Below, in pieces: positions 1 to 15,736 of a stretch of DNA of 15,736 bases (positions are counted from its first letter, which is position 1; every line of letters begins with the position of its first letter). The notes beneath the pieces are model-generated. The model made no database searches. It was not told where the DNA came from and saw only the letters and a list, made by a program, of their open reading frames with translations. Both the position numbers and the translations under genes were made by a program. Location of the stretch: positions 1-15,736 of the forward strand of contig JAFDWA010000011.1 in assembly GCA_018268735.1 (NCBI GenBank), read 5' to 3'. Origin of the DNA: Actinomycetota bacterium (lineage in GTDB: Bacteria; Actinomycetota; Acidimicrobiia; Acidimicrobiales; Microtrichaceae).

Positions 1-3000
1 GGCCTCGTCGATCCCGACGGCGACACCCTCGCGACCCTGCTGAGGTATCCGGCGCGTCACGGTCGGACCGTCGTGGTCGTGGTCCACGGGGACGACCTCC
101 CGGCCCACATCCCCGGGCTCCTCCTCGACCATCCCGAGATCGACCTGCGAGCGGTCGAGCTCGACGGGGACCCGGCATCCGCCGAACGACTGGCCGAGGT
201 GCTGCGCGACGGTCTGCGGCCACAGGTGCTGCGCATACGGCAAGGTCACGCCACGAGCGGCCGACTGCTCGCGACGCCGGTGCCCGACGTCGTCGCGAGC
301 GTCGCCCCGGCAGGCCAGCGCGAGCACACAGCGGTGTGGGGCGACGACGGCTCGTTGCACGTCGCCGCAGGGCTGCGACCCGGTGCGGCTGACGCCGCGC
401 CCGCGGGACAGGAGCGGATCCGCATCCTCGTCGATCGGGCGGTCGTCGCGGGCGCTGCCGCCGAGCTCGCACTGGCGGGCGAACCCGCAGGGGTGGGAGC
501 CGTCGGACGGGTGCTCGCTGGTCCGTCCGGGCTCCGTGACCGCACGGTCGCCGTCGTCGCCCGGGGCGCGGCGACCACCCAGATCGAGGTGGACGCCGAT
601 CGCGTGTGGCCGGTGCCCGACGTCGCGACCGGCACCGCCGCGCTCCTGGCCCTCCTGGCGCTGCACGCGGACCTGCCCGCCGCGGCCGCAGCGGCACCAG
701 GGGTGCTGCGCGCCGCCTTCGTGGCGCTCGTCGAGGTCGGACACCTCGCCGCCCCGGACACCACCGCGCTGGACACCACCGCCCCGACCACCACCGCGCT
801 GGCCGACCTCGCCGGCACGAGGCCCGACGCCCCGGCGACGGTGGTCGTCGGGGATCCGTCCACGCCCGTCGAGGAGGTCTCGGACCGCTGGGACGCAACC
901 GGCCGCTGGGCTGTCCTCGCGGCGGAGGACGATCCGCTCGGCGACGCGGTGCTCGCGTGGCTCCGCGACCGCGGCGCGGAGATCGTCACGATGGACTCGA
1001 CCGACGACGAGGCTGCGCTCACCGGGGTGGTGGCGATCGGCGACGCCCCGCTGGAACCGCTCGCCGGGCTCGACCGCCCCGTGATCTGGATCGGCCCCTC
1101 TGCAGTGCTCCTCGGCGGCAGCGAGGTCGATCCCGCTGCCGCCCGAGCGGCTGCGATCATGGCTGCACGACGCCGCGGGGGCCGACCCGCCACGACGTTC
1201 CTCGTCGGTCCGGACGTGGAGCACGCCGACGGGCTGGCCGTGCTCGATCGGGTGCTGTCGAGCGGGGTCGACGTCGCTGCCTACGACCCGCTGCAGCGCG
1301 AGGCGCTCGCCGCTTCCGACGTCGCCGGCGCTGCCCACGACGGCTGGTTCACCGCCCTCGCGCACCCGGACCCCATCGCCGACGCCACCGGTGATCTGCC
1401 GCTCGCCGCTGCGCTCGCCGGAGCCGACGGGGACGGGCGACTCGCCATCGTCAGACGGCACATCGCTGCCGACATCGCGACGATCATCGGCATCGACGAC
1501 GCCTCGATCGACACCGCCGAGCCGCTGGACACCTACGGAGTGGACTCGCTCGTCGGCATGGAGATGCGCAGCCGCATCCAGTCGAGCTTCGCCTACGAGG
1601 TGCCGCTGACGGAGCTGTCGCGGTCGATGACCGTGGACGACCTCTCGTCGCACCTGGTGGAGCACGCTGTGCCGGCGCTGGTGCGCGCCGGGGCCGGCGC
1701 GACCGGCGCGACCGAGCCCGCTGCTGTCCGACACGGCGGCGGGACCGAGCACCCGGGGTCCGCTGCGGTCGCGGTCCGCCGAGGCGACGGACCGACGAGC
1801 TGGTGGGTGCCGGGCATCTTCGGTGCCGCCGAGGTGTTCGGCCCGCTCGGTGACGCCCTGGACGGTCACGACATGTGGGCGCTGGAGCAGGCCGGCGCGA
1901 CCGCCACCTCGGTCATCGACGTGGCGACCGCCCACCTGCGCACGATCCGCTCACGTCAGCCTGTCGGGCCCTACCGGATCGGCGGCTACTCCTACGGCGC
2001 GCTGGTGGCGGCGGAGATCGCCGTCGCGCTGGAGTCCGCCGGAGAGGCCGTCGAGCGGCTGTGGCTGCTCGACCCGCCGCCGGTCGCCGCGACCGGGGAC
2101 CCCACGGGCGTGCGGACCAGCGCCGTCCGGAGCCTGCTGGCGGAGCACCTCTCGGAGCTCTTCGGCATCGACGCCCTCGCCGTCGACGACCTCCCGCCGT
2201 TGAGCGTCGAGGTCCGACGGGACGATCTCGCGCCGCTCGGATCGAGGCTGTCGTCGGGCTCCACTCCCTGGAGCGCCGAGCAGGCGACCGATCACCTGGT
2301 CCGCGTGTGGTCCACCACGACCGCCTCGCTCCAGGCGATGGCGGAGCACCGCCCGTCAGGTGTCGTCGCCGCAGCGACCGACCTCGTCGTCGCCGAGCTC
2401 AGCGGCCTGGGCGGACACGACACCGCCGCCGGCTGGCACGACGTCCTCGCCGGCGACGTGACGCCCACGACGCTCGACACCGACCACAGCGGACTCCTGC
2501 GAGCGGCGCACGCCGCCGCAGTGGCCGAGGTGGTCCGACGCTCGCTCGGAGGACCGACCCCCATGTGGGTGCCGAACCCGGAGGACCCGATGACCACCGA
2601 CACGGCTGCGGCGACCGGGCTCCGAGGCGCCCGTCGACGCCTCATCGCGGGCCTCACAGCCAGCCCGCGCTCACGATCGGCCGTCGGCGCCGTGGGCAAC
2701 GCCTACCGCCAGGCGGACTTCTTCCTGCGTGCGCTCGGCGCCGAACGCCGGTTCCGCCGCATGTGCGTGACCGGCGAGGACTTCATCGTCGGAGAGCACG
2801 CGCAGATCAACAACCTCTCCGGTGACCCCGAGCGGATCCGATTCGGCCACAACTGCCTGGTCGACGGCTACATCAACCTGCAGGAGCACGGGTACTTCAC
2901 GATGGGCAGCTACTCCGGACTCGGAGAGGGCGTGCGCATCGACTGCTCCGGCTACGTGGAGATCGGCAACGGCTGCACGATGGCGGAGGGCGTGTACGTC

Positions 3001-3414
3001 ATCGACGGCCTGCACCACCCGATCCTCGTCGACGAGCGGATCCGCCACGGCATCGACCTGTTCCAGGGCGACCACGTGATGGACGCGTACGGAACCGGGA
3101 CCGAGACCTCCTACGTCCGGATCGAGGACCTCGTCTGGATCGGCTTGCGTGCCATCGTCCTCAGCGGGGTCACGATCGGCCGCGGTTCGGTCATCGCCGC
3201 CGGGGCGGTGGTGTCGAGCGACGTCCCGCCGTTCTCGGTCGTGGCCGGCAACCCGGCGCGGGTCGTCGGTCGCATCCCGGCAGAGGACTTCGACATCGAG
3301 TCGCATCCGACCTTCCAGGCGACGCGCGGCAACCAGCGCCTGCCGGACCACCGGCGACCGGTCCGCGACGTCCTCGACGAGATCGCGGCGAGGGTCGCCG
3401 CACGCAGGACCTGA
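1..3414 (+). CDS. Type I polyketide synthase C-terminal part: degenerate ER/KR - ACP - thioesterase - LbH acyltransferase (5' partial)
   Basis: The frame is open from base 1 with no stop, so the GTG at 73 is only the first in-window start codon and the gene is truncated upstream. Domains in order: a KR structural half (about 60-290) resembling '[23 protein letters not shown]'; an ER-like remnant (about 410-755, with 'RVWPVPD'); a Thr/Pro linker (about 750-805); a KR Rossmann half (about 840-1370) without a recognisable glycine-rich motif or catalytic Tyr; an ACP with the phosphopantetheine serine in 'GVDSL' (Ser codon 1546-1548); a thioesterase with 'GYSYG' (Ser 1990-1992), Asp in 'LLDPPP' (2071-2073) and His in 'TDHSGLL' (2485-2487); and, from about 2590, a hexapeptide-repeat acyltransferase ending in '[14 protein letters not shown]', with a His-His pair (3013-3018) at the place expected for the catalytic His of maltose acetyltransferase-like enzymes. 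KS, AT and DH must lie upstream. It converges on the CCR gene. The ACP, TE and LbH calls are firm. The ER/KR assignment is by resemblance, and the product is unknown. Confidence 0.88.
751..802 (+). repeat. Imperfect 30-bp tandem duplication in the PKS Thr/Pro linker
   Basis: A 22-nt segment at 751-772 recurs at 781-802 with differences only at the seventh to ninth bases ('gac' versus 'acc'), giving a period of 30 bp (10 codons). It encodes a low-complexity Thr/Ala/Pro/Asp stretch ([15 protein letters not shown]). It sits where the ER cofactor-binding half would be expected, between the ER-like remnant and the KR-like remnant. Confidence 0.7.
2580..2592 (+). promoter_or_regulatory. Possible internal ribosome binding site and ATG for the acyltransferase part
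   Basis: GGAGG at 2580-2584 lies 5 nt before an in-frame ATG at 2590-2592, exactly at the linker between the thioesterase and the hexapeptide-repeat domain. A second in-frame ATG (2563-2565) has another GGAGG at 2548-2552, 10 nt upstream. Initiation here would give a free acyltransferase of about 274 residues, close to the size of stand-alone family members, as well as the full fusion. GGAGG also arises easily from Gly-Gly or Glu-Asp codons in GC-rich DNA, so chance is quite possible. Confidence 0.35.
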
Positions 3415-3418
3415 GAGC

Positions 3419-4789
3419 TCAGGTCAGCTCGCCGGCGCGGGCCTGTGCGAACAGGCGCGACCAGGCGGTGATCCGATCCTCGCCGATCCGGGCTCGCTTC
3501 TCCGGATCCTCGACGCCCAGCCCCTCGCGCTCGGCGAGGCAGAGCACCGCGACCTTGCCCTCGGCCCGGTTCTGCTTGACGACGAGCGCCGCCTCTCCGA
3601 CGTCGTCGAGCGAGTACGTCTCGGTGAGGAGGGGCTGGATCGTCCCCCGGTCGATCAGCGCGTTGACGTCGTGGTTCTCCTGCATGTTCGCACCGTGGGA
3701 TCCGATGATCCGCTTGAGCTTCATCCAGAGGTGGCGGTTGTCGTACTCGAGGTCGTAGCCGGTCGTCGCGGCGCAGGTGACGATCGATCCACCGCGCTTC
3801 GCGACGAACACCGACGCGCCGAACGTCTCGCGGCCGGGGTGCTCGAACACGATGTCCGGATCGGCGCCCGCCATCGATCGGATCTGCTTGCCGAGCCGGC
3901 GCCATTCGGACTCGTCCTGGGTGTCGGGATCCTTCCAGAACCGGTAGCCCTCGGCGCTGCGGTTGATGACGTGCTCGCATCCCAGCTCGTGCAGCACCGC
4001 CTCGCGCTCCGCCGAGGAGACGACCGCGACAGGGATGCCACCGCCTTCGAGCACGAGCTGGACCGCATAGCCGCCGATGCCGCCGGTGGCGCCCCAGATC
4101 AGCACGACGTCGCCCTGTCGCATCTGCGCGGCGTGGCGGCCGACCAGCATGCGGTAGCTCGTCCCGGCGCACAGCATGTTGACCGCAGCCTCCTCCCACG
4201 TGAGGTGGGTCGGCTTGGGCAGCAGCTGGGATGCTCGCACCACGCTCAGGTCGGCGAGGCCGCCGAAGTTCGTCTCGAAGCCCCACGCCTTCTGGTTGGC
4301 AGCGAGCATCTGGTCGTCGTTGGCGGCCGGGTCCTGGTCGTGGGTGACCACCGGTGCCATCACGACGCGGTCACCGACCTTCCAGCCACGGACCGCGCTG
4401 CCGGTGCGCACGATGATGCCGGCGCCGTCGGATCCCACGACGTGGTGGTCCTGGCTGTGGCGACGCTCCCACTGGCCCTCGCGTGCGAAGCGGTCGAGGA
4501 ACAGGAACGTCGACAGCGGCTCGAACACCGAGGTCCACACGGTGTTGTAGTTGATGGCGCTCGCCATCATCGCCACGACGACCTCGTCGGGTGCGAGCTC
4601 CGGCATCGGGACCTCGCCGACGTGCAGCGAGCGTCGCGGGTCCTTGTCGACCGAGGGGACGTCCGCGAACATCTCCTGCTCCGAGCGAAGCGTGTGGGCC
4701 GCCCGGTAGGTCTCACCCAGAGGGATCGCGGCGAGGTCGTCGCCGTCCACCCCGGCTCGGATGGCCTCCCTGATCGCGTCGATGCTCAC
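3419..4789 (-). CDS. ccr: Crotonyl-CoA carboxylase/reductase (or longer-chain enoyl-CoA carboxylase/reductase)
   Basis: This is a medium-chain dehydrogenase/reductase that reductively carboxylates crotonyl-CoA with NADPH and CO2 to ethylmalonyl-CoA. The 456 residues are near the usual family length. Family signatures: 'SAINYNTVWTS' (78-87), 'VGSDGAGIIVRTG', 'WGFETNFGG' (169-177), Rossmann 'WGATGGIGGY' (232-241), 'GYRFWKDPDTQD', 'FEHPGRETFGASVF' and 'IIGSHGAN' (361-368). The CO2-binding residues known from characterised CCRs (Asn in NYN, Phe-Glu in GFETN, His in GSH) are all present. I chose the GTG at 4789 because the only start codon further upstream in frame is a TTG at 4843, and the extra 18 residues look unlike the family; a G-rich stretch precedes this GTG. 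It lies 82 bp downstream of the FAAL gene on the same strand. Beside a PKS and an FAAL it most likely supplies an alkylmalonyl extender; a role in the ethylmalonyl-CoA pathway is the alternative. Confidence 0.93.
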   Translation of the reverse strand: MSIDAIREAIRAGVDGDDLAAIPLGETYRAAHTLRSEQEMFADVPSVDKDPRRSLHVGEVPMPELAPDEVVVAMMASAINYNTVWTSVFEPLSTFLFLDRFAREGQWERRHSQDHHVVGSDGAGIIVRTGSAVRGWKVGDRVVMAPVVTHDQDPAANDDQMLAANQKAWGFETNFGGLADLSVVRASQLLPKPTHLTWEEAAVNMLCAGTSYRMLVGRHAAQMRQGDVVLIWGATGGIGGYAVQLVLEGGGIPVAVVSSAEREAVLHELGCEHVINRSAEGYRFWKDPDTQDESEWRRLGKQIRSMAGADPDIVFEHPGRETFGASVFVAKRGGSIVTCAATTGYDLEYDNRHLWMKLKRIIGSHGANMQENHDVNALIDRGTIQPLLTETYSLDDVGEAALVVKQNRAEGKVAVLCLAEREGLGVEDPEKRARIGEDRITAWSRLFAQARAGELT

Positions 4790-4871
4790 CTGTCCCCCGT
4801 CTGGTCGCGGACACCGGCCCGCCGGGACGGGCGACGGCGTCAAGTGGTCTCAGCCACCCTATCGGGACCCG

Positions 4872-6614
4872 TCAGGAACCAGGGACGCCGACGAGCTCGA
4901 GCGAGCCCTCCTCGAACATGCGCTTGGCGGCATGGCGTTGGATCTTGCCGCTCGAGGTCTTCGGCAGGCTGCGCGGCGCGATGAACACGACCTCCGACGG
5001 AGCGACCTGGTAGTGCTCGACCACCGCCGCCTGCACCGCCCGGGCTGCCGCGTCGAGATCGCCGATCGTCGACTCGTTGACCTCCGCGACGATCGCGACC
5101 CCCTCGGTCGAACCGTCCACGTCGGCGACAGCGAAGGCGGCGACGCAGCCGGCGCGGACCCCCGGAACCGACTCGGCGACCAGCTCGAGGTCCTGCGGGT
5201 AGAGGTTGCGTCCGCGCACGATCAGGATGTCCTTGATCCTGCCGGCCACGTAGAGCTGGCCGTCGTGGAAGAACCCGAGGTCACCGGTGCGCAGGAACGG
5301 CCCCTCGCCGTCGGACGTCGTTGCGTGGAAGACCTCGGCGGTCTGACGGCGACGACCCCAGTACCCGTGGCCGACGCTGGGTCCGGCGAGCCAGATCTCG
5401 CCGAGTCGATCGTCCTCCAGCGGAGCGGACGAGTCAGGATCGACGATGCGGATGTCGTGGAGCGGTCCACCGACCCCGCACGACACCAGCTCGACCGAGC
5501 GGGCCTCCTCCGAGGGCTCCTCCGAGGGCTCCTCCACGAGCGCCGACACGGCGCGACCGGCTGCGAGCTCGTCCCGATCGAAGCGCGAGATCAGGGGGAG
5601 CTCACCGGTCGGCTTGGCCGACACGTAGAGGGTCGACTCCGCCAGGCCGTAGCAGGGCAGCATCGTGCGCTGCGAGTATCCGTGGGGCTCGAACGCCTCT
5701 GCGAAGCGTCGGATCGTCGACGCTCTGACGGGCTCGGCACCGTTGAACGCGTACTTCCAGCTCGACAGGTCGAGCCCCTCGCGGTCCTCCGCGGCGATGC
5801 GCCGGACGCAGAGCTCGAAGGCGAAGTTCGGAGCAGGACTCGTGGTGGCGGAGTAGGTCGAGATCGCTCGCAGCCACCGCAGGGGTCGGGAGAGGAAGTC
5901 GAGCGGCGACATGAGCGCACCCTGCCCACCTCGGTACAGCGGTTCGAGGATGCCGCCGATCAGGCCCATGTCGTGGTACGGCGGCAACCAGGACACGCCG
6001 ATGAACGGGTCGTCCCCGCCGCTGCTGGCGCGGATGAGCTCGAGGTTGGCGAGGAGGTTCCCGTGGCTCAGCACGACGCCCTTCGGCAGCGACGTGGATC
6101 CGGAGGTGTACTGGATGAACGCCGTCGTGTCCTGCGTCGAGCCCGGATCGGCCCAGTCGTCACCTCCGCTGGAGGTGGCATCGCCGACGAGGATCCACGG
6201 CGTCCTCGCGAGGTCCGGTGCCACGGCCCAGAGCTCGTCGCGGAACGCCACGAAGAGGTCGTCGGTGAGGATCGCGACGGCTTCTGCGTCCTGGGCGATC
6301 GCCTGCAGGCGAGGCACGCTGCGCTTGATGTTGACCATGTCCGGCAGGAAGGCCGGCACGGCGATCATCCCGGCGTAGAGGCAGCCGAAGAACGCAGCGA
6401 GGAAGTCCGGGCCCGGCGCCATGAGGATCACGACGCGGTCGCCGGGCCCTCCGACCTGGGCGAGTCGTGACGCCACCGATCGTGCATCGCTGTCGAGCGA
6501 CCCGAAGGTGATCTCCATCACGTCGTCGTCGCCGTCGAGCAGGTACCAGAACGACGTGTCGGCTCCCTGCTCGCCAGCGCGGCTGCGGAGCATGTCCACC
6601 AGGCTCACGAACAC
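4872..6614 (-). CDS. Fatty-acyl-AMP ligase (FAAL, FadD32-like)
   Basis: An ANL-superfamily adenylating enzyme of the FAAL group, which turns a fatty acid and ATP into acyl-AMP and passes the acyl group to an acyl carrier protein of a PKS or NRPS rather than to CoA. Visible motifs (580-residue numbering): P-loop 'YTSGSTSLPKG' (169-179), 'SWLPPYHDMGLIGG' (208-221, typical of FAALs), 'CYGLAESTLYVS' (321-332), 'LRTGDLGF', 'GRIKDILIVRGRNLYPQDLE' and a C-terminal 'PKTSSGKIQR' with the catalytic Lys near 556. I chose the GTG at 6614 because GGAGGT lies 6 nt upstream. An ATG at 6638 would add 8 residues but would have that Shine-Dalgarno inside the coding region. The gene precedes ccr and lies next to a PKS, so it probably supplies that enzyme's starter unit. 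A short acidic repeat (361-371) is described separately. Confidence 0.93.
   Translation of the reverse strand: MFVSLVDMLRSRAGEQGADTSFWYLLDGDDDVMEITFGSLDSDARSVASRLAQVGGPGDRVVILMAPGPDFLAAFFGCLYAGMIAVPAFLPDMVNIKRSVPRLQAIAQDAEAVAILTDDLFVAFRDELWAVAPDLARTPWILVGDATSSGGDDWADPGSTQDTTAFIQYTSGSTSLPKGVVLSHGNLLANLELIRASSGGDDPFIGVSWLPPYHDMGLIGGILEPLYRGGQGALMSPLDFLSRPLRWLRAISTYSATTSPAPNFAFELCVRRIAAEDREGLDLSSWKYAFNGAEPVRASTIRRFAEAFEPHGYSQRTMLPCYGLAESTLYVSAKPTGELPLISRFDRDELAAGRAVSALVEEPSEEPSEEARSVELVSCGVGGPLHDIRIVDPDSSAPLEDDRLGEIWLAGPSVGHGYWGRRRQTAEVFHATTSDGEGPFLRTGDLGFFHDGQLYVAGRIKDILIVRGRNLYPQDLELVAESVPGVRAGCVAAFAVADVDGSTEGVAIVAEVNESTIGDLDAAARAVQAAVVEHYQVAPSEVVFIAPRSLPKTSSGKIQRHAAKRMFEEGSLELVGVPGS
5505..5535 (-). 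repeat. 12-bp tandem repeat inside the FAAL gene
   Basis: A 31-nt stretch with a perfect 12-bp period (about 2.6 copies, plus-strand unit ctcctccgaggg) encodes Glu-Glu-Pro-Ser repeats (EEPSEEPSEEA). It keeps the reading frame and sits in a variable loop after the core adenylation motifs, so it is probably tolerated length variation. Confidence 0.85.
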
Positions 6615-6620
6615 AGACGG

Positions 6621-6626
6621 ACCTCC
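6621..6626 (-). promoter_or_regulatory. Shine-Dalgarno site of the FAAL gene
   Basis: On the minus strand GGAGGT ends 6 nt before the GTG at 6614-6612. This spacing favours the GTG over the ATG at 6638 as the start. Confidence 0.65.
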
Positions 6627-6659
6627 AGCCAACGACATCCCCGGAACGACATCCGATCG

Positions 6660-6690: not shown

Positions 6691-6711
6691 CCGCGGCGTC
6701 ACATGCCGCGG
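6691..6711 (-). terminator. GC hairpin overlapping the stop codon of the 2H-GNAT gene
   Basis: CCGCGGC (6691-6697) and GCCGCGG (6705-6711) form a perfect 7-bp stem with a 7-nt loop. The loop contains the TGA stop of the 2H-GNAT gene (6699-6701). No T-run follows on the transcribed strand, so this would be a tail-less hairpin. It may end or protect the upstream transcript. Confidence 0.4.
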
Positions 6712-7658
6712 AACCACCAGGAGCGCATGGGCTCGAATCCCTGGCTCACGAGGAACGCCGCGTCCGCGGCGTCGGTGGCAGCGGCGACGACCGCTGCAGC
6801 GGCGCCGCGTGTCGCCGCAGCAGAGACCCACGCCCGCAGCACCTGCCCGGCGATCCCCTCTCGCCGTCGGTCCGCGACGACCGAGACCCGATCGAGCTCG
6901 ACCACCGACGCGCCGGGAGGGAGTCGTCCGGCTGCGACGCCGAGCACCCGGTCCGGCTCGCCGGGTTGCTCGGCGACGACCACGATGTGCTGCGCGCGAC
7001 CCGCGGCACCGGGCACCGTGGCCGTCACTCCGAGCAGGTCCGCAGCGGCAGGTTCGACCATCGAGACGGTCCGCAGCACGAGCTCCACGCCACCGCGACC
7101 GACGACGAGCGGACCGCCGAGCGGCTCCTCGCGCACCGGCACCCAGCAGGCCTGGCCGTGGCGAGGGTGCTCCGGCCCGTGGCGGTGCTGCTCCAGCAGG
7201 TGCAGCGAGCAGCAGCTCCAACGTTGGCGCAGGCCGGCGAAGGCCCGCATCCCGGCCTCGATCAGGGCGGTGTCCAACTGCTCGCAGATCGTGACGTGCG
7301 GATGGAACGGCCACACGTCAGGGCGGTCGAAGGGGCCGGCGCGCAGGTGGCCGCGCAGGGAGCGGAGGCCGTCGAGGTCGGCGCCGTCCACGGCGAGGTG
7401 CAGCGTCGGGGTCTCCGGGAGGAACGTCGCCACCGGTCCGACATCGAGATCGAACGGGTGCGAGGCACCCGCAACCCGTCGGAGCAGCGCGGTCACAGCA
7501 GGCAGGTCCTGCGCCGCAACGTTGACCGGCGGGACCAGCGTCAGGTGCGGGGCGACGTGGAAGGGCTCAGCGACGCCGACCGATCGTCGCAGCACGTCGA
7601 TCTCCGACGCCTCCGAGGGAGGCGCCAGCACCGCAACGGCGAGACGGCGACGGGCCAC
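6699..7658 (-). CDS. 2H phosphoesterase ('2'-5' RNA ligase'-like) fused to GNAT acetyltransferase
   Basis: A two-domain protein of 319 residues. The N-terminal half (about 1-180) carries two H-x-T motifs typical of 2H phosphoesterases, 'HLTL' (His38, Thr40) and 'HVTI' (His121, Thr123), about 80 residues apart. This family includes bacterial 2'-5' RNA ligase/LigT and cyclic phosphodiesterases acting on RNA or nucleotides. The C-terminal half (about 190-319) looks like a GNAT acetyltransferase: 'VVELDRVSVVADRRREGIAGQVL' matches beta4 plus the acetyl-CoA pyrophosphate-binding motif (R265-R-E-G-I-A270), followed by a helix and 'AFLVSQGFEPMRSWWFRGM', the usual GNAT end. Both sets of motif residues look intact. 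The start is a GTG with only a weak G-rich leader. It lies 48 bp after atpC and 84 bp before FAAL on the same strand. Substrates of both domains are unknown. Confidence 0.82.
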   Translation of the reverse strand: MARRRLAVAVLAPPSEASEIDVLRRSVGVAEPFHVAPHLTLVPPVNVAAQDLPAVTALLRRVAGASHPFDLDVGPVATFLPETPTLHLAVDGADLDGLRSLRGHLRAGPFDRPDVWPFHPHVTICEQLDTALIEAGMRAFAGLRQRWSCCSLHLLEQHRHGPEHPRHGQACWVPVREEPLGGPLVVGRGGVELVLRTVSMVEPAAADLLGVTATVPGAAGRAQHIVVVAEQPGEPDRVLGVAAGRLPPGASVVELDRVSVVADRRREGIAGQVLRAWVSAAATRGAAAAVVAAATDAADAAFLVSQGFEPMRSWWFRGM

Positions 7659-7706: not shown

Positions 7707-8116
7707 TCAGGACCCCTCTGCAGCCTCGAGGCGGGTGCTGGCACGGGCGAGCGCGGCACGGGCCTCCGGGTCGTCCGCGTCGACGCGCAGCGCCTCCTCG
7801 GCGCGGGCCTTCGCCGCGCGGGCACGATCGACGTCGATCGTGTCGGCGAGCTCGGCGACGTCGGAGAGGATCGTGACCCGCGTGTTGCCGGCCGCATCGG
7901 GCGGAGAGACCTCGACGAACCCCTGGTGCACCGCGATGACCTGGACGGTCCCGTCGGCGGCCTTCAGGCGCACCTGGTGGGTGGCCAGCACGCCGATGAA
8001 CGGGATGTGGCCGACCTGGAAGCCGATCTCACCGGTCGTGGTGCGGCAGATGACCATCTCCGCCTCGCCGGAGTAGGCGATGCGCTCCGGGCTGACGAGC
8101 TCGACCTCGAGAGCCA

Positions 8117-8117
<1 letters not shown>
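7707..8117 (-). CDS. atpC: F1Fo ATP synthase epsilon subunit
   Basis: A 136-residue epsilon subunit of the F1 central stalk, which couples rotation to catalysis and can inhibit ATP hydrolysis. The N-terminal beta-sandwich is visible (MALEVELVSPERIAYSGEAE, then 'GEIGFQVGHIPFIGVLATHQVRL'). A C-terminal Ala/Arg/Glu-rich part should form the two regulatory helices. The length is normal. Its ATG overlaps the atpD stop by one base (TGATG), so translation is probably coupled. It is the last atp gene. Confidence 0.96.
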
Positions 8118-9592
<1,475 letters not shown>

Positions 9593-9613
9593 TCAGGCTG
9601 GTGACGCTGGCGG

Positions 9614-10597
9614 TCAGGTCCGGACAGGACCCGACGCGTGGCGGTGGCCGAGCTCGTGGAACGGCTCGGTGTCGAGGTGGTGCAGGATGATCTCTCCCGG
9701 CTCCTCGCGGTCATCCGCGAGGGCCTCGGCGCCGCCGATGATCTCCATGATCTCGGTGGTGATGGCGTCCTGACGGACCTGGTTCATCTTCCGGGTGTAC
9801 TTGACGATCAGCTCTTCGGCGTTGTCGGTGGCCGACTTCATCGCCCGCTGGCGGCTCGCGAGCTCCGACGCCGCTGCGTCGAGGAGCGCGGCGAAGACCC
9901 GGGACTCGACGTAGCGCGGCAGCAGCGTCTCGAGCACCGCGCTGGCCGAGGGCTCGAACTCGAAGCCGGCGGTGGCGGTGGCGTCGCCGCTCTCGGCGAT
10001 CGTGTGGGTGTCCTCCAGCGGCAGGAAGCGGCGGACGACCACCTCCTGGGATCCGAGCGAGATGAACCTCGTGTAGACGAGGTCGATGCGGTCACAGCCG
10101 CCGTGCTCGAACAGGTCGCGCACCCGAGCGGCGACGGCGACCGCGTCCTCGAAGCTCGGGTTCTCCGAGAACCCCTCGAAGCTCGCCTCGATCGGGTAGT
10201 GGCGGAAGCTGAAGTACGCCTTGGGCTTGCGGCCCACGGTCACGAGCGCGTAGTCGTGACCCTCCGACCGGGCGGCCTGGACCTCTCGCTCGGCGGCCTT
10301 GATGACCGACGAGTTGTAGGCACCGGCCAGGCCACGGTCCGCGGCCAGCACCACGACGCCGACCTTCTCGACCACGCCCAGCGGACGCAGGAGCGGGTGG
10401 TCGACCTCGGCGCCGGCCGCTGACAGGTCCTGGATGACCTGGGTGATGTGCTCCGCGTACGGACGGGCCTCGTTGGCGCGCTGCTGGGCCTTGACGACGC
10501 GCGTCGCCGCGATCAGCTCCATCGCGCGGGTGATCTTCTTGGTGTTCTGGACGCTGGAGATCTTCCGTCGGAGGATCCGCTCCTGTGCACCGGCCAT
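9614..10597 (-). CDS. atpG: F1Fo ATP synthase gamma subunit with C-terminal extension
   Basis: The rotor shaft subunit, 327 residues. The N terminus 'ERILRRKISSVQNTKKITRAMELIAATRV' and the C-terminal helix 'MKSATDNAEELI...NQVRQDAITTEIMEIIGGAEAL' are classic gamma sequences forming the coiled coil inside alpha3beta3. The usual end is near residue 294. About 33 further residues follow (DDREEPGEIIL, HHLDTEPFHELGHRH, ASGPVRT), rich in His and acidic residues. The ATG is preceded by a GGGAG Shine-Dalgarno. The gap to atpA upstream is 25 bp. Confidence 0.97.
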   Translation of the reverse strand: MAGAQERILRRKISSVQNTKKITRAMELIAATRVVKAQQRANEARPYAEHITQVIQDLSAAGAEVDHPLLRPLGVVEKVGVVVLAADRGLAGAYNSSVIKAAEREVQAARSEGHDYALVTVGRKPKAYFSFRHYPIEASFEGFSENPSFEDAVAVAARVRDLFEHGGCDRIDLVYTRFISLGSQEVVVRRFLPLEDTHTIAESGDATATAGFEFEPSASAVLETLLPRYVESRVFAALLDAAASELASRQRAMKSATDNAEELIVKYTRKMNQVRQDAITTEIMEIIGGAEALADDREEPGEIILHHLDTEPFHELGHRHASGPVRT

Positions 10598-10622
10598 GTC
10601 GGCTCCCTAGGTCCCGTCCGCC

Positions 10623-12263
10623 TCAGACCGTCGCCGCGTCCTCACCGCCGTCACGGGTGACGTCCTCCTCGGGGAGGTGGCGGCTGGAGCGCGCGATGGT
10701 GGCGTCGGGATCGGCCTGGGCCTGCGCCGGCGGGGCTGCGCCGTCGACGGTCGTCCCCTGGAACTGCGCCGCGAACGCCTTGACGGCGGCGTCGAAGGCG
10801 TCCTCGTCGTCGATCTTCCCGGTCGTTCGGATCGCGTCGAGCATCGCCGCGTGACGGGTGCGGAACCAGTCGAGCAGCCCGTCCTCGAACGAGCGGACGT
10901 CCTCGATCGAGATGCTGTCGAGGTAGCCACGGGTCCCGGCGAAGATGACCACGCACTGGTCCTGGACCGCCATCGGGCTGTTGATGCCCTGCTTGAGCAG
11001 CTCGGTGAGCCGGTAGCCGCGCTCGAGCTGCGCCTTGGACACCGCGTCGAGGTCCGAGCCGAACGCAGCGAACGCCTCGAGCTCGCGGAACTGCTGCAGG
11101 TCGGACTTGAGGGTGCCCACTGCGGTCTTCATCGCCTTGATCTGTGCGGCGGAACCCACGCGTGACACCGAGATGCCGACGTCGACCGCCGGACGCACAC
11201 CGGACTTGAACAGGTCGTCCTGCAGGAAGATCTGGCCGTCGGTGATCGAGATCACGTTGGTCGGGATGTAGGCGGAGACGTCACCGGCCTTGGTCTCGAT
11301 GACCGGCAGCGCCGTGAGGGAACCGGCACCGTTCTCGTCGGAGAGCTTGGCGGCCCGCTCCAGCAGGCGGCTGTGCAGGTAGAAGACGTCGCCGGGGTAG
11401 GCCTCGCGACCCGGTGGGCGACGCAGCAGCAGCGACACCTGGCGGTACGCCTCGGCCTGCTTGGAGAGGTCGTCGTAGACGACGAGGGCGTGCTCGCCGT
11501 GCTCCATCCAGTGCTGGCCCATCGCGCAGCCGGCGTACGGAGCGAGGTACTTGAACGGCGCCGGGTCCGACGCCGGGGCGACCACCACGACGGTGTACTC
11601 GAGCGCTCCCCGCTCGGCGAGGGTCGCCACCGTCTGCGCGACGGTCGACGCCTTCTGGCCGATCGCGACGTAGATGCACTTCACGCCGAGGCCACGCTGG
11701 TTGAGGATCGTGTCGATGGCGATCGTGGTCTTGCCGGTCTTGCGGTCGCCGATGATCAGCTCCCGCTGACCACGACCGATCGGGATGAGCGAGTCGATGG
11801 CCTTGATGCCGGTCTGCATCGGCTCGCCCACGGGCTGGCGACCCATGATGCCGGGCGCCTGGATCTCCATGCGTCGGGGCTGGACGCCGACGAGCGGACC
11901 CTTGCCGTCGATGGGCTCGCCGAGGGTGTTCACGACCCTGCCCAGGACGCCGTCGCCGACGGGCACCGAGAGGATGTTGCCGGTCGCCTTGACCGTCTGG
12001 CCCTCCTCGATCGAGTCGACCTCGCCGAGCACCACGGCCCCGATCGAGTCCTCGTCCAGGTTGAGGGCGAGGCCCAGCAGACCGGACTCGAACTCGAGCA
12101 GCTCGTTGACCGCCGCGTCGGGCAGGCCCGACACCCGGGCGATGCCGTCGCCGACCTCGATGACGCGGCCGACCTGGGTCAGCTCGACGTCCGGGGCGAA
12201 GCCCTCCAGGTTCTTCTTGATCGCCGCGGTGATGTCGGCGGTGTTGATCGTGAGCTCAGCCAT
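10623..12263 (-). CDS. atpA: F1Fo ATP synthase alpha subunit with long C-terminal tail
   Basis: Non-catalytic nucleotide-binding subunit of 546 residues, against about 513 in E. coli. Walker A 'GDRKTGKT' (172-179) and alpha-type segments '[18 protein letters not shown]', '[23 protein letters not shown]' and '[16 protein letters not shown]' are clear. After 'AFAAQFQGT' (about residue 500) comes a tail of about 45 residues, Ala/Pro/Gln-rich and then acidic ([18 protein letters not shown]). Mycobacterial alpha subunits also carry a C-terminal extension, one that suppresses ATP hydrolysis; here it is acidic rather than Lys-rich. The start ATG follows the atpH stop after a single base, which suggests coupled translation. 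Confidence 0.98.
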
Positions 12264-12264
12264 C

Positions 12265-12792
12265 TCAGAAGGCCTCTCGGAGTTGGTTCAGGCGGGTACG
12301 TACGGAGCCGTCGATCACCGAGTCGCCGATCGTGGTGACGATGCCACCCATCACGGTCGGGTCGACGACGTTGCGGATCGTGATGTCGATGTCGGTGCGG
12401 GCCTTGAGCGCTGCTGCGAGCTCGCTGAGCTGCGCTTCGGTGAGCGGCACCGCTGAGCGCACCTCCGCGACGGACTGGCCCCTGGCCGCAGCGCTGCGAC
12501 GAGCCAGCTCGTCCGCGATCGCCGGCAGGTCGGAGATGCGCCCGGCCGACACCAGCATCGACGTGAACGACACCGTGGTGCGCGACGCCTTGCCGTCGAG
12601 GAGGTCCTCGACGATCTGGGCGCGGCGCTCGACGGGGAGGTGGACGTCGGTCAGGGTGCTGCGGAGCTCGTCGTTGCCGGTCAGGAGCCGGCCGAGGCGG
12701 AACAGCTCGTCGGTGACCTCATCGGTGCTGGCCTCGGCCGCGGCGATGCTGTAGGCAGCATCTGCGTAGGCGGAGATCTGTGCGTCGCTCAT
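12265..12792 (-). CDS. atpH: F1Fo ATP synthase delta subunit
   Basis: A 175-residue delta subunit linking the peripheral stalk to the top of F1. Its N-terminal helical domain starts '[17 protein letters not shown]', and the family's C-terminal signature '[37 protein letters not shown]' is present. Its normal length and a separate b gene upstream show it is not the b-delta fusion of mycobacteria. The leader before its ATG is an 18-bp repeat region with no strong Shine-Dalgarno. Its stop is one base from the atpA start. Confidence 0.95.
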
Positions 12793-12802
12793 GTTGGTGT
12801 CC

Positions 12803-12863
12803 GTCGTTCGGGAGTGCTGTGTCGTTCAGGAGTGCTGTGTCGTTCGGGGGAGCTGTGTCGTTC
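12803..12863 (-). repeat. 18-bp tandem repeat between atpF and atpH
   Basis: Three adjacent 18-bp copies (12803-12820, 12821-12838, 12839-12856) plus a 7-nt partial fourth copy (12857-12863) fill most of the 85-bp gap between the b and delta genes. The minus-strand unit is acagcactcccgaacgac. Copies 1 and 2 differ at one base, and copy 3 at a few. The frame following the b-subunit TGA stays open through the array, so each unit could be read as six codons (Asn-Asp-Thr-Ala-Leu/Pro-Pro/Leu). Confidence 0.9.
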
Positions 12864-12877
12864 TTCGGGCGACCGGG

Positions 12878-13411
12878 TCAGTTCTGCGAGCCGACCTGGC
12901 TGATGTAGGCGTCGATCAGGCGCTGCTGGGTGGCGTCGTCGAGCGCCGAGCCGACGACCTCCTCCGCCGCTCCGAGTGCGAGGCGCGACAGCTCGCCGGA
13001 GAGGTCGGCCGTCGCCTGGGTGCGGGTGGCGACGAGATCGGTGGCGGCACGCTCGCGCAGCGCCGCGATGTCGGACTCGGTCCGCGCCGCGGTGTCGACG
13101 CCGAGCTGGTCGGCGGCTCGGCGAGCCTCCTCGACGATGCGGCCTGCTTCGGCGTCGGAGTCCGCGAGCGCCGCCTTGATCCGGTCGCGCTCTGCTTCGG
13201 CAGATTCACGGGCGGCGGAGGCCTCGCCGAGTCGATCGGCGATCTTCTCGGACCGACCTCGCATGCCCTTGGCGATGAAGTCCTTGCCGAACTTCACGAG
13301 CAGGAAGGCGACGACGAGGAAGGCGAGGGTGCCCCAGATGACCTCGTTGATGTCGGCAGGGAGCCACCAGCCGTTGCTGCCCTCGGATGCGAGGACGTTG
13401 AGTGCGTTCAT
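12878..13411 (-). CDS. atpF: F1Fo ATP synthase b subunit
   Basis: A peripheral-stalk subunit of 177 residues. After a short lead (MNALNVLASEGSNGWW) comes one membrane segment at about 23-42 (EVIWGTLAFLVVAFLLVKFG), then a long charged Ala/Glu/Arg helix (RSEKIADRLGEASAARESAEAERD and onward) expected to form the coiled coil, ending 'LIDAYISQVGSQN'. It follows a second b-type gene by 20 bp and has GGAGG 10 nt before its ATG. Of the two b-like genes this is closer to an ordinary b. The b/b' naming is inference. Confidence 0.9.
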   Translation of the reverse strand: MNALNVLASEGSNGWWLPADINEVIWGTLAFLVVAFLLVKFGKDFIAKGMRGRSEKIADRLGEASAARESAEAERDRIKAALADSDAEAGRIVEEARRAADQLGVDTAARTESDIAALRERAATDLVATRTQATADLSGELSRLALGAAEEVVGSALDDATQQRLIDAYISQVGSQN

Positions 13412-13431
13412 CTCTCGGGTTCCTCCCGGCC

Positions 13432-13974
13432 TCAGCGCTGTCCGCCGGAGCGGTTCACGTAGTCGTCGACGGTGCCGCGGTGCGCAGCGGGGTCGAGCGG
13501 GGCCTGCACGACCTTGGAGGCCGCGGCGACCGCGAGCTCGGCGACGTCTCCGGTGAGCTCCCCGAGCGCTGCGGCCCGCTGGCGGTCGAGCTCGGCCATC
13601 GCGTCCTGGCGCTCGGCAGCGAGCTCCGTCTCGACCGCTGCGACCTGCTGCGACCGACGCTGCTCTGCGGTCGCACGGGCTTCCTCGAGCACGCGCGACG
13701 CCTCGCCACGCGCCTCGGCGAGGGTGGCGTCGTAGTCACGTCGGACCTGCTCGGCCTGCGTGGACGCGGTCTCGGCGGCCTCGAGGTCGGACTGGACCTG
13801 CGCGTCGCGCTGTGCCCGGATCCGCATCAGCGGCGGAAGGCACACGTAGCGCATGAGGATCCACAACAGGAAGAAGAACACCGCACCCCAGAACAGCTCC
13901 CCTTTGTTGTCGGGGACCACGGGGTTGATCGAACTGCTGCCTTCTGCGGCCAGCACACTCAGTTGAGCGAGCAT
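13432..13974 (-). CDS. Second b-type subunit of ATP synthase (b'-like)
   Basis: A 180-residue protein with the same build as its neighbour: lead 'MLAQLSVLAAEGSSSINPVVP', one membrane segment at about 27-45 (ELFWGAVFFFLLWILMRYV), then a charged helix rich in Ala/Glu/Arg/Gln (MRIRAQRDAQVQSDLEAAET and onward). It lies between atpE and atpF, the place of b' (AtpG/AtpX) in cyanobacteria and some proteobacteria. It presumably pairs with the next gene product as a b/b' heterodimer. AGGAG lies 6 nt before the ATG. The assignment rests on position and architecture; a homodimer with a spare paralogue is the alternative. Confidence 0.88.
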   Translation of the reverse strand: MLAQLSVLAAEGSSSINPVVPDNKGELFWGAVFFFLLWILMRYVCLPPLMRIRAQRDAQVQSDLEAAETASTQAEQVRRDYDATLAEARGEASRVLEEARATAEQRRSQQVAAVETELAAERQDAMAELDRQRAAALGELTGDVAELAVAAASKVVQAPLDPAAHRGTVDDYVNRSGGQR

Positions 13975-13993
13975 CGGGTACTCCTGGTTCGGT

Positions 13994-14011
13994 CGACCCC
14001 GTGAGGGGTCG
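13994..14011 (-). other. Hairpin between atpE and the b' gene
   Basis: CGACCCC (13994-14000) and GGGGTCG (14005-14011) form a perfect 7-bp stem closed by a 4-nt loop, within the 68-bp gap downstream of atpE. It has no T-run. It could stabilise the 3' end of an atpE-containing mRNA fragment or reduce read-through to later genes. Confidence 0.55.
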
Positions 14012-14042
14012 CTCGGTCGGTCCGGTCAGGTCGTCGGTGTGA

Positions 14043-15225
<1,183 letters not shown>

Positions 15226-15234
15226 TCGGTCGGG

Positions 15235-15240
15235 CTCCTT
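15235..15240 (-). promoter_or_regulatory. Shine-Dalgarno site of atpB
   Basis: AAGGAG on the minus strand follows directly after the TAG stop of the atpI-like gene and lies 9 nt before the atpB ATG, so the two genes are probably co-transcribed and translated close together. Confidence 0.75.
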
Positions 15241-15736
15241 CTACGGCGCGGTCGGTGATGCGGACGGGGCGGGTGGCACCTCGTTCGACGGGGCGCCGTC
15301 AGAGGTGGGCAGGTACGGGTTCGGGGTGGATGCCGGCTTGAGGCCGGGGAACGCAAGGGTGTGGGAGATGTGGCGGAGCTCCCAGAACAGCAGGCCCAGG
15401 TGGGTCACGATGATCGTGATGCCGAGCGGGACCAGCTCGACCCACGGCTGGTTCCGAACCGCGAGGATGGCCACCATGATCAGGCCGAGCCGCACCAGGA
15501 AGCCGAAGAACGCCGCAGCGCCCATCGCGGCAGCGCCGATGCGACCGCCGACCTGGAGCATCCAGCCAGCGAGCAGGAAGTTCACCACGACGATCGCGAG
15601 GCCGTAGAGCGTCGAGAACACGCCGTCGAGGCCCCAGAACGCGGCCGAGACCATGATCGCGACCGGCAGGACCCAGAGGCTCCGCTTCACGATGTCGAGT
15701 GCGACGGCCATCGCCGGCGAGGGGCCCTCGATGCGG
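15241..15736 (-). CDS. AtpI-like small membrane protein at head of atp operon (5' end probably outside window)
   Basis: Four hydrophobic segments are visible (SLWVLPVAIMVSAAFWGLDG; a second around 'LYGLAIVVVNFLLAGWML'; a third with 'FFGFLVRLGLIMVAILAV'; a fourth 'LVPLGITIIVTHLGLLFWEL'), then a Pro/Ser-rich tail of about 35 residues. Size, topology and position just before atpB fit the ATP synthase I family, whose members help c-ring assembly or ion transport; sequence support is weaker than for the other subunits. The first in-window ATG is at 15711 (156 residues), but it lacks a good Shine-Dalgarno. The frame stays open to the window edge, reading 'RIEGPSPA' before it, so the true start may lie further upstream. 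Confidence 0.75.
   Translation of the reverse strand, partial: RIEGPSPAMAVALDIVKRSLWVLPVAIMVSAAFWGLDGVFSTLYGLAIVVVNFLLAGWMLQVGGRIGAAAMGAAAFFGFLVRLGLIMVAILAVRNQPWVELVPLGITIIVTHLGLLFWELRHISHTLAFPGLKPASTPNPYLPTSDGAPSNEVPPAPSASPTAP

Follow-up and report, generated by a model that had tools for sequence, protein, structure and literature searches.

The window, that is, the whole stretch of 15,736 nucleotides that was analysed, is an entire contig (C22) of a draft genome with 767 contigs and a completeness of 83%. Its features are listed in Table 1. The reading frame of a type I polyketide synthase (PKS) is open from the first base of the window and ends with a TGA codon at 3412-3414; the earlier note had this frame begin at 1700, but its 5' end lies beyond the contig edge. 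The Pfam domains PP-binding (residues 488-552), Thioesterase (602-848) and Hexapep (1039-1072) each scored above the cut-off in this one frame, which contains no in-frame stop codon in 2450-2700 and has a third-position GC of 0.85-0.94 in each of ten blocks. As had been claimed, the frame is unbroken, in a single open reading frame without a stop, from the acyl carrier protein (ACP) through the thioesterase (TE) to the left-handed beta-helix acyltransferase (LbH). Genes for a crotonyl-CoA carboxylase/reductase (CCR) and a fatty acyl-AMP ligase (FAAL)-like enzyme lie downstream. The sequence at 6699-7658 (minus strand), flanked on one side by the FAAL-like gene and on the other by putative ATP synthase genes, encodes a LigT/2'-5' RNA ligase-like domain with a weak GNAT domain. 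The genes at 7707-15711 (minus strand) resemble, by eye, an ATP synthase operon, which adjoins the synthase, CCR and FAAL-like genes.

Table 1. Positions of the synthase features and neighbouring genes in the window
Feature	Position	Strand	Remarks
Type I PKS, C-terminal 1137 residues	1..3414	+	5' end cut by contig edge
Degenerate reductive region, later part (ER-KR remnant)	1..1425	+	Motif scan; without catalytic motif
Second acyl carrier protein (ACP)	1462..1656	+	Pfam; Ser at 1546-1548 within GVDSL
Alpha/beta-hydrolase thioesterase (TE)	1804..2544	+	Ser 1990-1992, Asp 2071-2073, His 2485-2487
TE-LbH linker	2545..2589	+	Conserved Glu codon overlaps GGAGG 2580-2584; another GGAGG 2548-2552
Conserved in-frame ATG, candidate internal start	2590..2592	+	Anti-Shine-Dalgarno (anti-SD) duplex -9.8 kcal/mol
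LbH (hexapeptide-repeat) acyltransferase	2590..3411	+	His-His 3013-3018; [10 protein letters not shown] from 3238
Two N-terminal helices of acyltransferase	2602..2763	+	AlphaFold2, helices 5-24 and 26-58 of 274 residues
Crotonyl-CoA carboxylase/reductase (CCR)	3419..4843	-	TIGR01751 528.4 bits, cut-off 378.55; convergent to synthase
Fatty acyl-AMP ligase (FAAL)-like gene	4872..6638	-	AMP-binding above Pfam cut-off

When the acyltransferase part was used as query, six proteins with the TE-LbH join were retrieved (P0002-P0007); once longer proteins were admitted, ten further fused proteins of 2422-2650 amino acids came up (P0146-P0155). Since P0005 is a piece of P0006, there are 15 distinct fused relatives besides the protein of the window. 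Their LbH domains are 61-83% identical to that of the window, and when the 16 fused proteins are compared in pairs over their final 190 residues, identity ranges from 61% to 96%. One of them, P0007, is from a metagenome-assembled genome (MAG) of Microthrixaceae, on a contig of 3.04 Mb. The fragmented and incomplete state of the draft genome might suggest that an assembly or sequencing artefact masks a stop codon. However, the identical join in 15 distinct proteins refutes this by recurrence, and we regard the chance of such an artefact as vanishingly small. Because these proteins come from several sources and carry the join in-frame, a sequencing error at 2500-2600, which in the earlier note would have made two separate genes of the fusion, is excluded for practical purposes, and a lost stop codon or frameshift there is ruled out. 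In a tree of LbH sequences, the fused domains and the stand-alone protein P0026 form one group (support 95/97) with a partly open inner order, the outgroup being 11 rows of our own choice, among which the program warned of long branches. This grouping fits a single fusion event.

All ten full-length relatives have the order ACP-KS-AT-degenerate reductive region-ACP-TE-LbH, a single module; the Pfam domain scan was run on three of them (P0146, P0153 and P0155). In P0146 it gave PP-binding, ketoacyl synthase (KS) and acyltransferase (AT) domains, a long stretch without over-threshold domains, and then carrier, thioesterase and hexapeptide-repeat domains. Residues 2-1137 of the window's protein align to residues 1327-2452 of P0146 with 62% identity. 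Furthermore, on another contig of the same genome (C146), 920 residues match residues 1-929 of P0146 with 76% identity and represent the 5' piece of the synthase. About 398 residues are absent between the two pieces, and a query of the genome with P0146 found no contig that covers this gap; the pieces very likely belong to one gene, joined here by homology rather than by sequence. The N-terminal ACP precedes the KS on C146 as well as in 10/10 full-length relatives. By motif, KS, AT, ACP and TE are combined in one chain without working reductive domains, the gene of the present genome lying on two contigs. The enzyme had been described as the terminal module of a modular PKS; this was not borne out, and a last module is ruled out by the single-module full-length relatives.

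The active sites of the condensing and releasing domains are conserved. The KS Cys/His/His, the GQSIGE motif of the AT and the Ser of the N-terminal ACP are present in all 11 sequences that include this part (the C146 piece and the ten relatives), and the Ser of the second ACP and the Ser/Asp/His of the TE in 12 of 12 (the window, the ten relatives and P0006). The TE Ser motif is also found in P0002-P0004. The middle of the TE of P0007 is without the GYSxG motif, and this stretch looks frame-shifted. A motif scan was carried out with what we take to be the canonical KR, ER and DH patterns. Those of KR and ER were absent in 12/12 sequences, and that of DH was absent in nine of the ten full-length relatives, the matching string of P0155 being far from the expected place; the DH position of the window's gene falls in the gap before the window. 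The reductive remnant in the window had no match in the PDB at E<=1. In P0153, a PS-DH domain is still above the Pfam cut-off, and in P0155 a KR match is below it. About 800 residues of reductive region after the AT are retained in the full-length relatives despite the lost catalytic patterns, perhaps as a scaffold. The specificity loop of the AT is DIPGHGPLM in 11/11 sequences. It is neither YASH nor HAFH, the loop motifs named in the available part of a review (PMC6164871), and a text search of the literature, as far as its texts were accessible, gave no match for an IPGH loop.

The C-terminal domain has the fold of maltose and galactoside O-acetyltransferases, as had been proposed. Hexapeptide repeats in a left-handed beta-helix were found by Pfam, AlphaFold2 and Foldseek. 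In the AlphaFold2 model (mean pLDDT 89.7), two N-terminal helices precede the beta-helix. Foldseek matches this model best to maltose O-acetyltransferases, of which some contain acetyl-CoA; of the 50 matches listed, AntD, an N-acyltransferase, has the highest TM-score. In a profile of 38 sequences, the His-Pro motif, the His of which is presumably the catalytic residue, aligns to that of a galactoside-type O-acetyltransferase, and the AGNPA end of sugar O-acetyltransferases is also present. The His-His-Pro and AGNP motifs are invariant in 16/16 rows, and no 100-residue block of the synthase is more conserved than the one with His-His-Pro (P0146 2301-2400, mean majority 0.93). Unlike the maltose and galactoside enzymes, the present LbH is fused to a PKS, has the two-helix N-terminal extension and scores below all 25 curated family cut-offs listed, including TIGR03308 (66 bits against 201.65, the best), the WcaF family (60.6 against 192) and maltose O-acetyltransferase (56 against 314). 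A model of ACP-TE-LbH had a mean pLDDT of 65.5 and a pTM of 0.46; values below 60 were found in the linker and over most of the LbH, and no geometry was derived from this model. Other proteins also join an LbH to carrier-protein machinery. AMP-binding, LbH and carrier domains are in one chain in P0009-P0011 (carrier by Pfam scan in P0009 and by precomputed Pfam in P0010 and P0011), and P0156 is a nonribosomal peptide synthetase (NRPS) of 2590 amino acids with a luciferase-like monooxygenase domain and a C-terminal LbH, without a thioesterase match. Their domain orders differ from that of the window, and identity over part of the LbH is 41% (P0009) and 32% (P0156).

The recurrence of the fusion, which the earlier note had named as a check, holds for the 15 other database proteins but not for sampled genomes, where the LbH query found the present genome only: 1/33 genomes of the family, 1/397 of the order, 1/395 of the class and 1/336 of the phylum (E<=1e-40 in one sample and E<=1e-30 in the others; the samples overlap). 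The ACP-TE query likewise found 1/397, the present genome. The P0007 query found 0/298, with three candidates scored per genome among the rows listed and without a positive control. DNA of relatives was not detected in genome contigs (12 loci, none above 42% identity), viral contigs (no match) or plasmids (50 records, all below 60%). In the portion of the literature that was accessible, mostly outside subscription journals, no description of the ACP-TE-LbH order was found, which is weak evidence for novelty; the statement that the order is not a standard PKS architecture agrees with this, no described PKS with the same order having been met there. The accessible text of a paper on gene clusters of Acidimicrobiia (PMC8692599) gave nothing on this architecture. 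Among the literature matches listed, as far as their text was accessible, there was no architecture description for Pks13 together with FAAL, CCR and alkylmalonyl, or for CCR with FAAL and PKS.

The neighbouring genes bear on the substrates. The present genome has one CCR copy that we found, and CCR occurs in 31/33 genomes of the family, its own included, with best matches elsewhere of 62-69% identity (48% in one genome). Because it is so common in the family, the CCR is no proof of a special extender unit, and its candidacy as a cluster-specific extender enzyme is weakened. For the FAAL-like gene, FAAL and FadD32 models are among the top matches, all below their own cut-offs. It has at most 44% identity to matches in 28 other family genomes, differs from the FAAL-like gene that is common in the family, and is distinct from a second FAAL-like gene of the same genome on contig C54; because of these differences, it may belong to the synthase. 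On C146, the ATG of the synthase overlaps the stop codon of the open reading frame directly upstream, which resembles a polysaccharide flippase (Pfam 25.1 bits, below the cut-off of 28.2).

The architecture calls for comparison with Pks13, the condensing synthase that joins two fatty acyl chains into mycolic acids. According to the accessible part of a preprint (PMC9900942), FadD32 loads ACP1 of Pks13, KS, AT and ACP2 follow, the TE transfers the product to trehalose, the enzyme is a parallel dimer, and the genes form a fadD32-pks13-accD4 cluster. The present synthase shares with Pks13 the N-terminal ACP, KS, AT, second ACP and TE, the lack of recognised working reductive domains, and a FAAL-like gene nearby. 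Furthermore, among the PDB matches of P0146, only those of Pks13 chains have a best stretch that starts at the N-terminal ACP. However, the synthase has about 800 extra residues of degenerate reductive region, a TE of the fatty acid synthase (FAS) or NRPS type and a convergent CCR, and the C-terminal LbH is unmentioned for Pks13 in the accessible part of PMC9900942. In the gene order, the CCR lies between the synthase and the FAAL-like gene, and no AccD4-like carboxylase was recognised on C22 or C146, both of which end at the synthase. The TE matches those of NocB, FASN and EntF, and among the 21 PDB sequences matched by it none is labelled Pks13; with the whole P0146, other type I PKSs (7zma, CurL, DEBS) are the best PDB matches and Pks13 chains rank lower. 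Because of these rankings and the nature of the TE, we say that the enzyme may work like Pks13, and do not class it as Pks13. The mycocerosic acid synthase (MAS), the KS-AT of which matches residues 119-1010 of P0146, is also a single-chain PKS; unlike the present enzyme, we take it to have reductive domains that work, and to lack an N-terminal ACP, a TE and an LbH.

The best explanation, to which we give about an even chance by analogy with Pks13, is that the single-chain synthase carries out one non-reducing condensation of two fatty acyl units, followed by release by the fused TE and O-acylation by the LbH. We infer the individual catalytic steps, the acceptor, the donor and the export as follows. 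The N-terminal ACP would receive its fatty acid from the FAAL-like enzyme encoded nearby, the AT with its DIPGHGP loop would pick a carboxylated acyl unit, and the KS would condense the loaded acyl chain with this unit held by the AT and the second ACP. No reduction would follow because the searched DH, ER and KR motifs are gone, and the beta-keto product would stay unreduced. The TE may then release the beta-keto acid, either by hydrolysis or by transfer to a hydroxyl of an acceptor, for example a sugar, and the LbH may cap a hydroxyl of the acceptor or the product using acetyl-CoA or another acyl-CoA. The flippase-like protein encoded directly upstream might export the product. Of the original PKS-acyltransferase reading, the succession of TE and LbH in one chain stands, while the enzyme itself is a condensing synthase that resembles Pks13, has a single module and probably carries out no reduction. 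The coupling of release and acylation envisaged in the earlier note may apply, but the conserved seam Met would also let the cell produce the acyltransferase as a separate protein.

The seam between TE and LbH contains two ATG codons with Shine-Dalgarno-like sequences (2563 and 2590), which the earlier note had missed. All 16 distinct fused proteins have Glu-x(0-4)-Met at the seam, though the sequences between TE and LbH vary and Met accounts for 1.1% of their residues. The seam Met is not one alignment column, those of P0007, P0152 and P0153 being set elsewhere by the aligner. In P0152 and P0153, the Met directly follows the Glu and lies 59 and 52 residues, respectively, from the FFLRAL helix, compared with 37-47 in the other 14. 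In the DNA of the window, the seam reads CCG-GAG-GAC, so that GGAGG is followed by ACCCG and then by the ATG at 2590, with a spacing of 5 bases. The anti-SD energy of this ATG (Table 1) may be compared with that of the start of the synthase itself (-9.3 kcal/mol) and those of twelve other starts in the window (-3.2 to -10.5 kcal/mol), which were taken as given in the list of open reading frames; the ATG at 2563 (-9.5 kcal/mol) is not common to the relatives. Among 84 in-frame internal ATGs, three reach -9.8 kcal/mol, ATG 2590 included. The Shine-Dalgarno reading comes from the DNA of the window, the relatives being known as protein. P0026, the stand-alone relative of 274 amino acids (72% identity to P0146), begins at the seam Met. 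The simplest history would be a fusion of two genes with the start site kept; its retention across such divergence suggests that the start may be in use, and a free LbH made from it is a serious possibility.

It could be argued that the acyltransferase acts mainly as a separate protein translated from the internal start, and that the fusion is a by-product of a stop codon lost between two ancestral genes. The Glu-x(0-4)-Met of all fused proteins, including the Glu-adjacent Met of P0152 and P0153 despite their longer spacers, the GGAGG-5 nt-ATG arrangement with a predicted duplex as strong as that of the synthase start, and the start of P0026 at the seam Met would all agree with this. However, the 15 other fused proteins hold the frame open down to 61% LbH identity, 191 of 4836 in-frame codons have a Shine-Dalgarno-like match as strong as that of ATG 2590 in the one DNA considered, P0026, from a contig of 2,359 bases, may result from a split gene call, and of the 120 matches listed to proteins of stand-alone size P0026 is the sole one with a query coverage above 75%. 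We consider this explanation rather unlikely.

An alternative possibility could be that the LbH itself is the releasing acyltransferase and accepts the completed acyl chain straight from the second ACP or from the TE. LpxA-type enzymes use acyl-ACP, the LbH is fused next to ACP-TE, and separate proteins join adenylation, LbH and ACP (P0009) or end an NRPS with an LbH (P0156, no TE match). However, by both fold and profile its best matches are sugar O-acetyltransferases, which have the AGNPA end, and a second releasing enzyme is unneeded because the TE triad is intact; this makes the possibility an improbable one. Another role for the LbH might be that of a trimerisation tag without catalytic activity, by which the synthase is organised. 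LbH-fold enzymes are usually trimers. KS-based synthases are dimeric, as is Pks13 in the accessible part of PMC9900942. This role is very improbable in view of the invariance of His-His-Pro and AGNP in all 16 rows.

A KS dimer and an LbH trimer in one chain would give a polymer or close up as a D3 cage if the trimers are not filled by free LbH subunits. We put forward, quite tentatively and with low confidence, that one gene may give two products: a dimeric Pks13-like lipid synthase with a trimeric LbH end, and a free LbH from the conserved internal start. Six synthase chains would form a D3 cage of three KS dimers and two LbH trimers, while free subunits would fill up or cap the trimers and determine how much condensation takes place relative to acylation. 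The expected product, an alpha-branched beta-keto lipid bearing an added acyl group, would be one from outside the mycolic-acid bacteria.

The condensing synthase with its fused acyltransferase suggests that a Pks13-like joining of two fatty chains may occur outside the mycolic-acid group, the named relative being the Microthrixaceae MAG, and that a built-in acyltransferase may take the place of later tailoring. It also poses a structural question, namely how a two-fold synthase and a three-fold acyltransferase are accommodated on one chain, to which the Met codon at the seam may be an answer.
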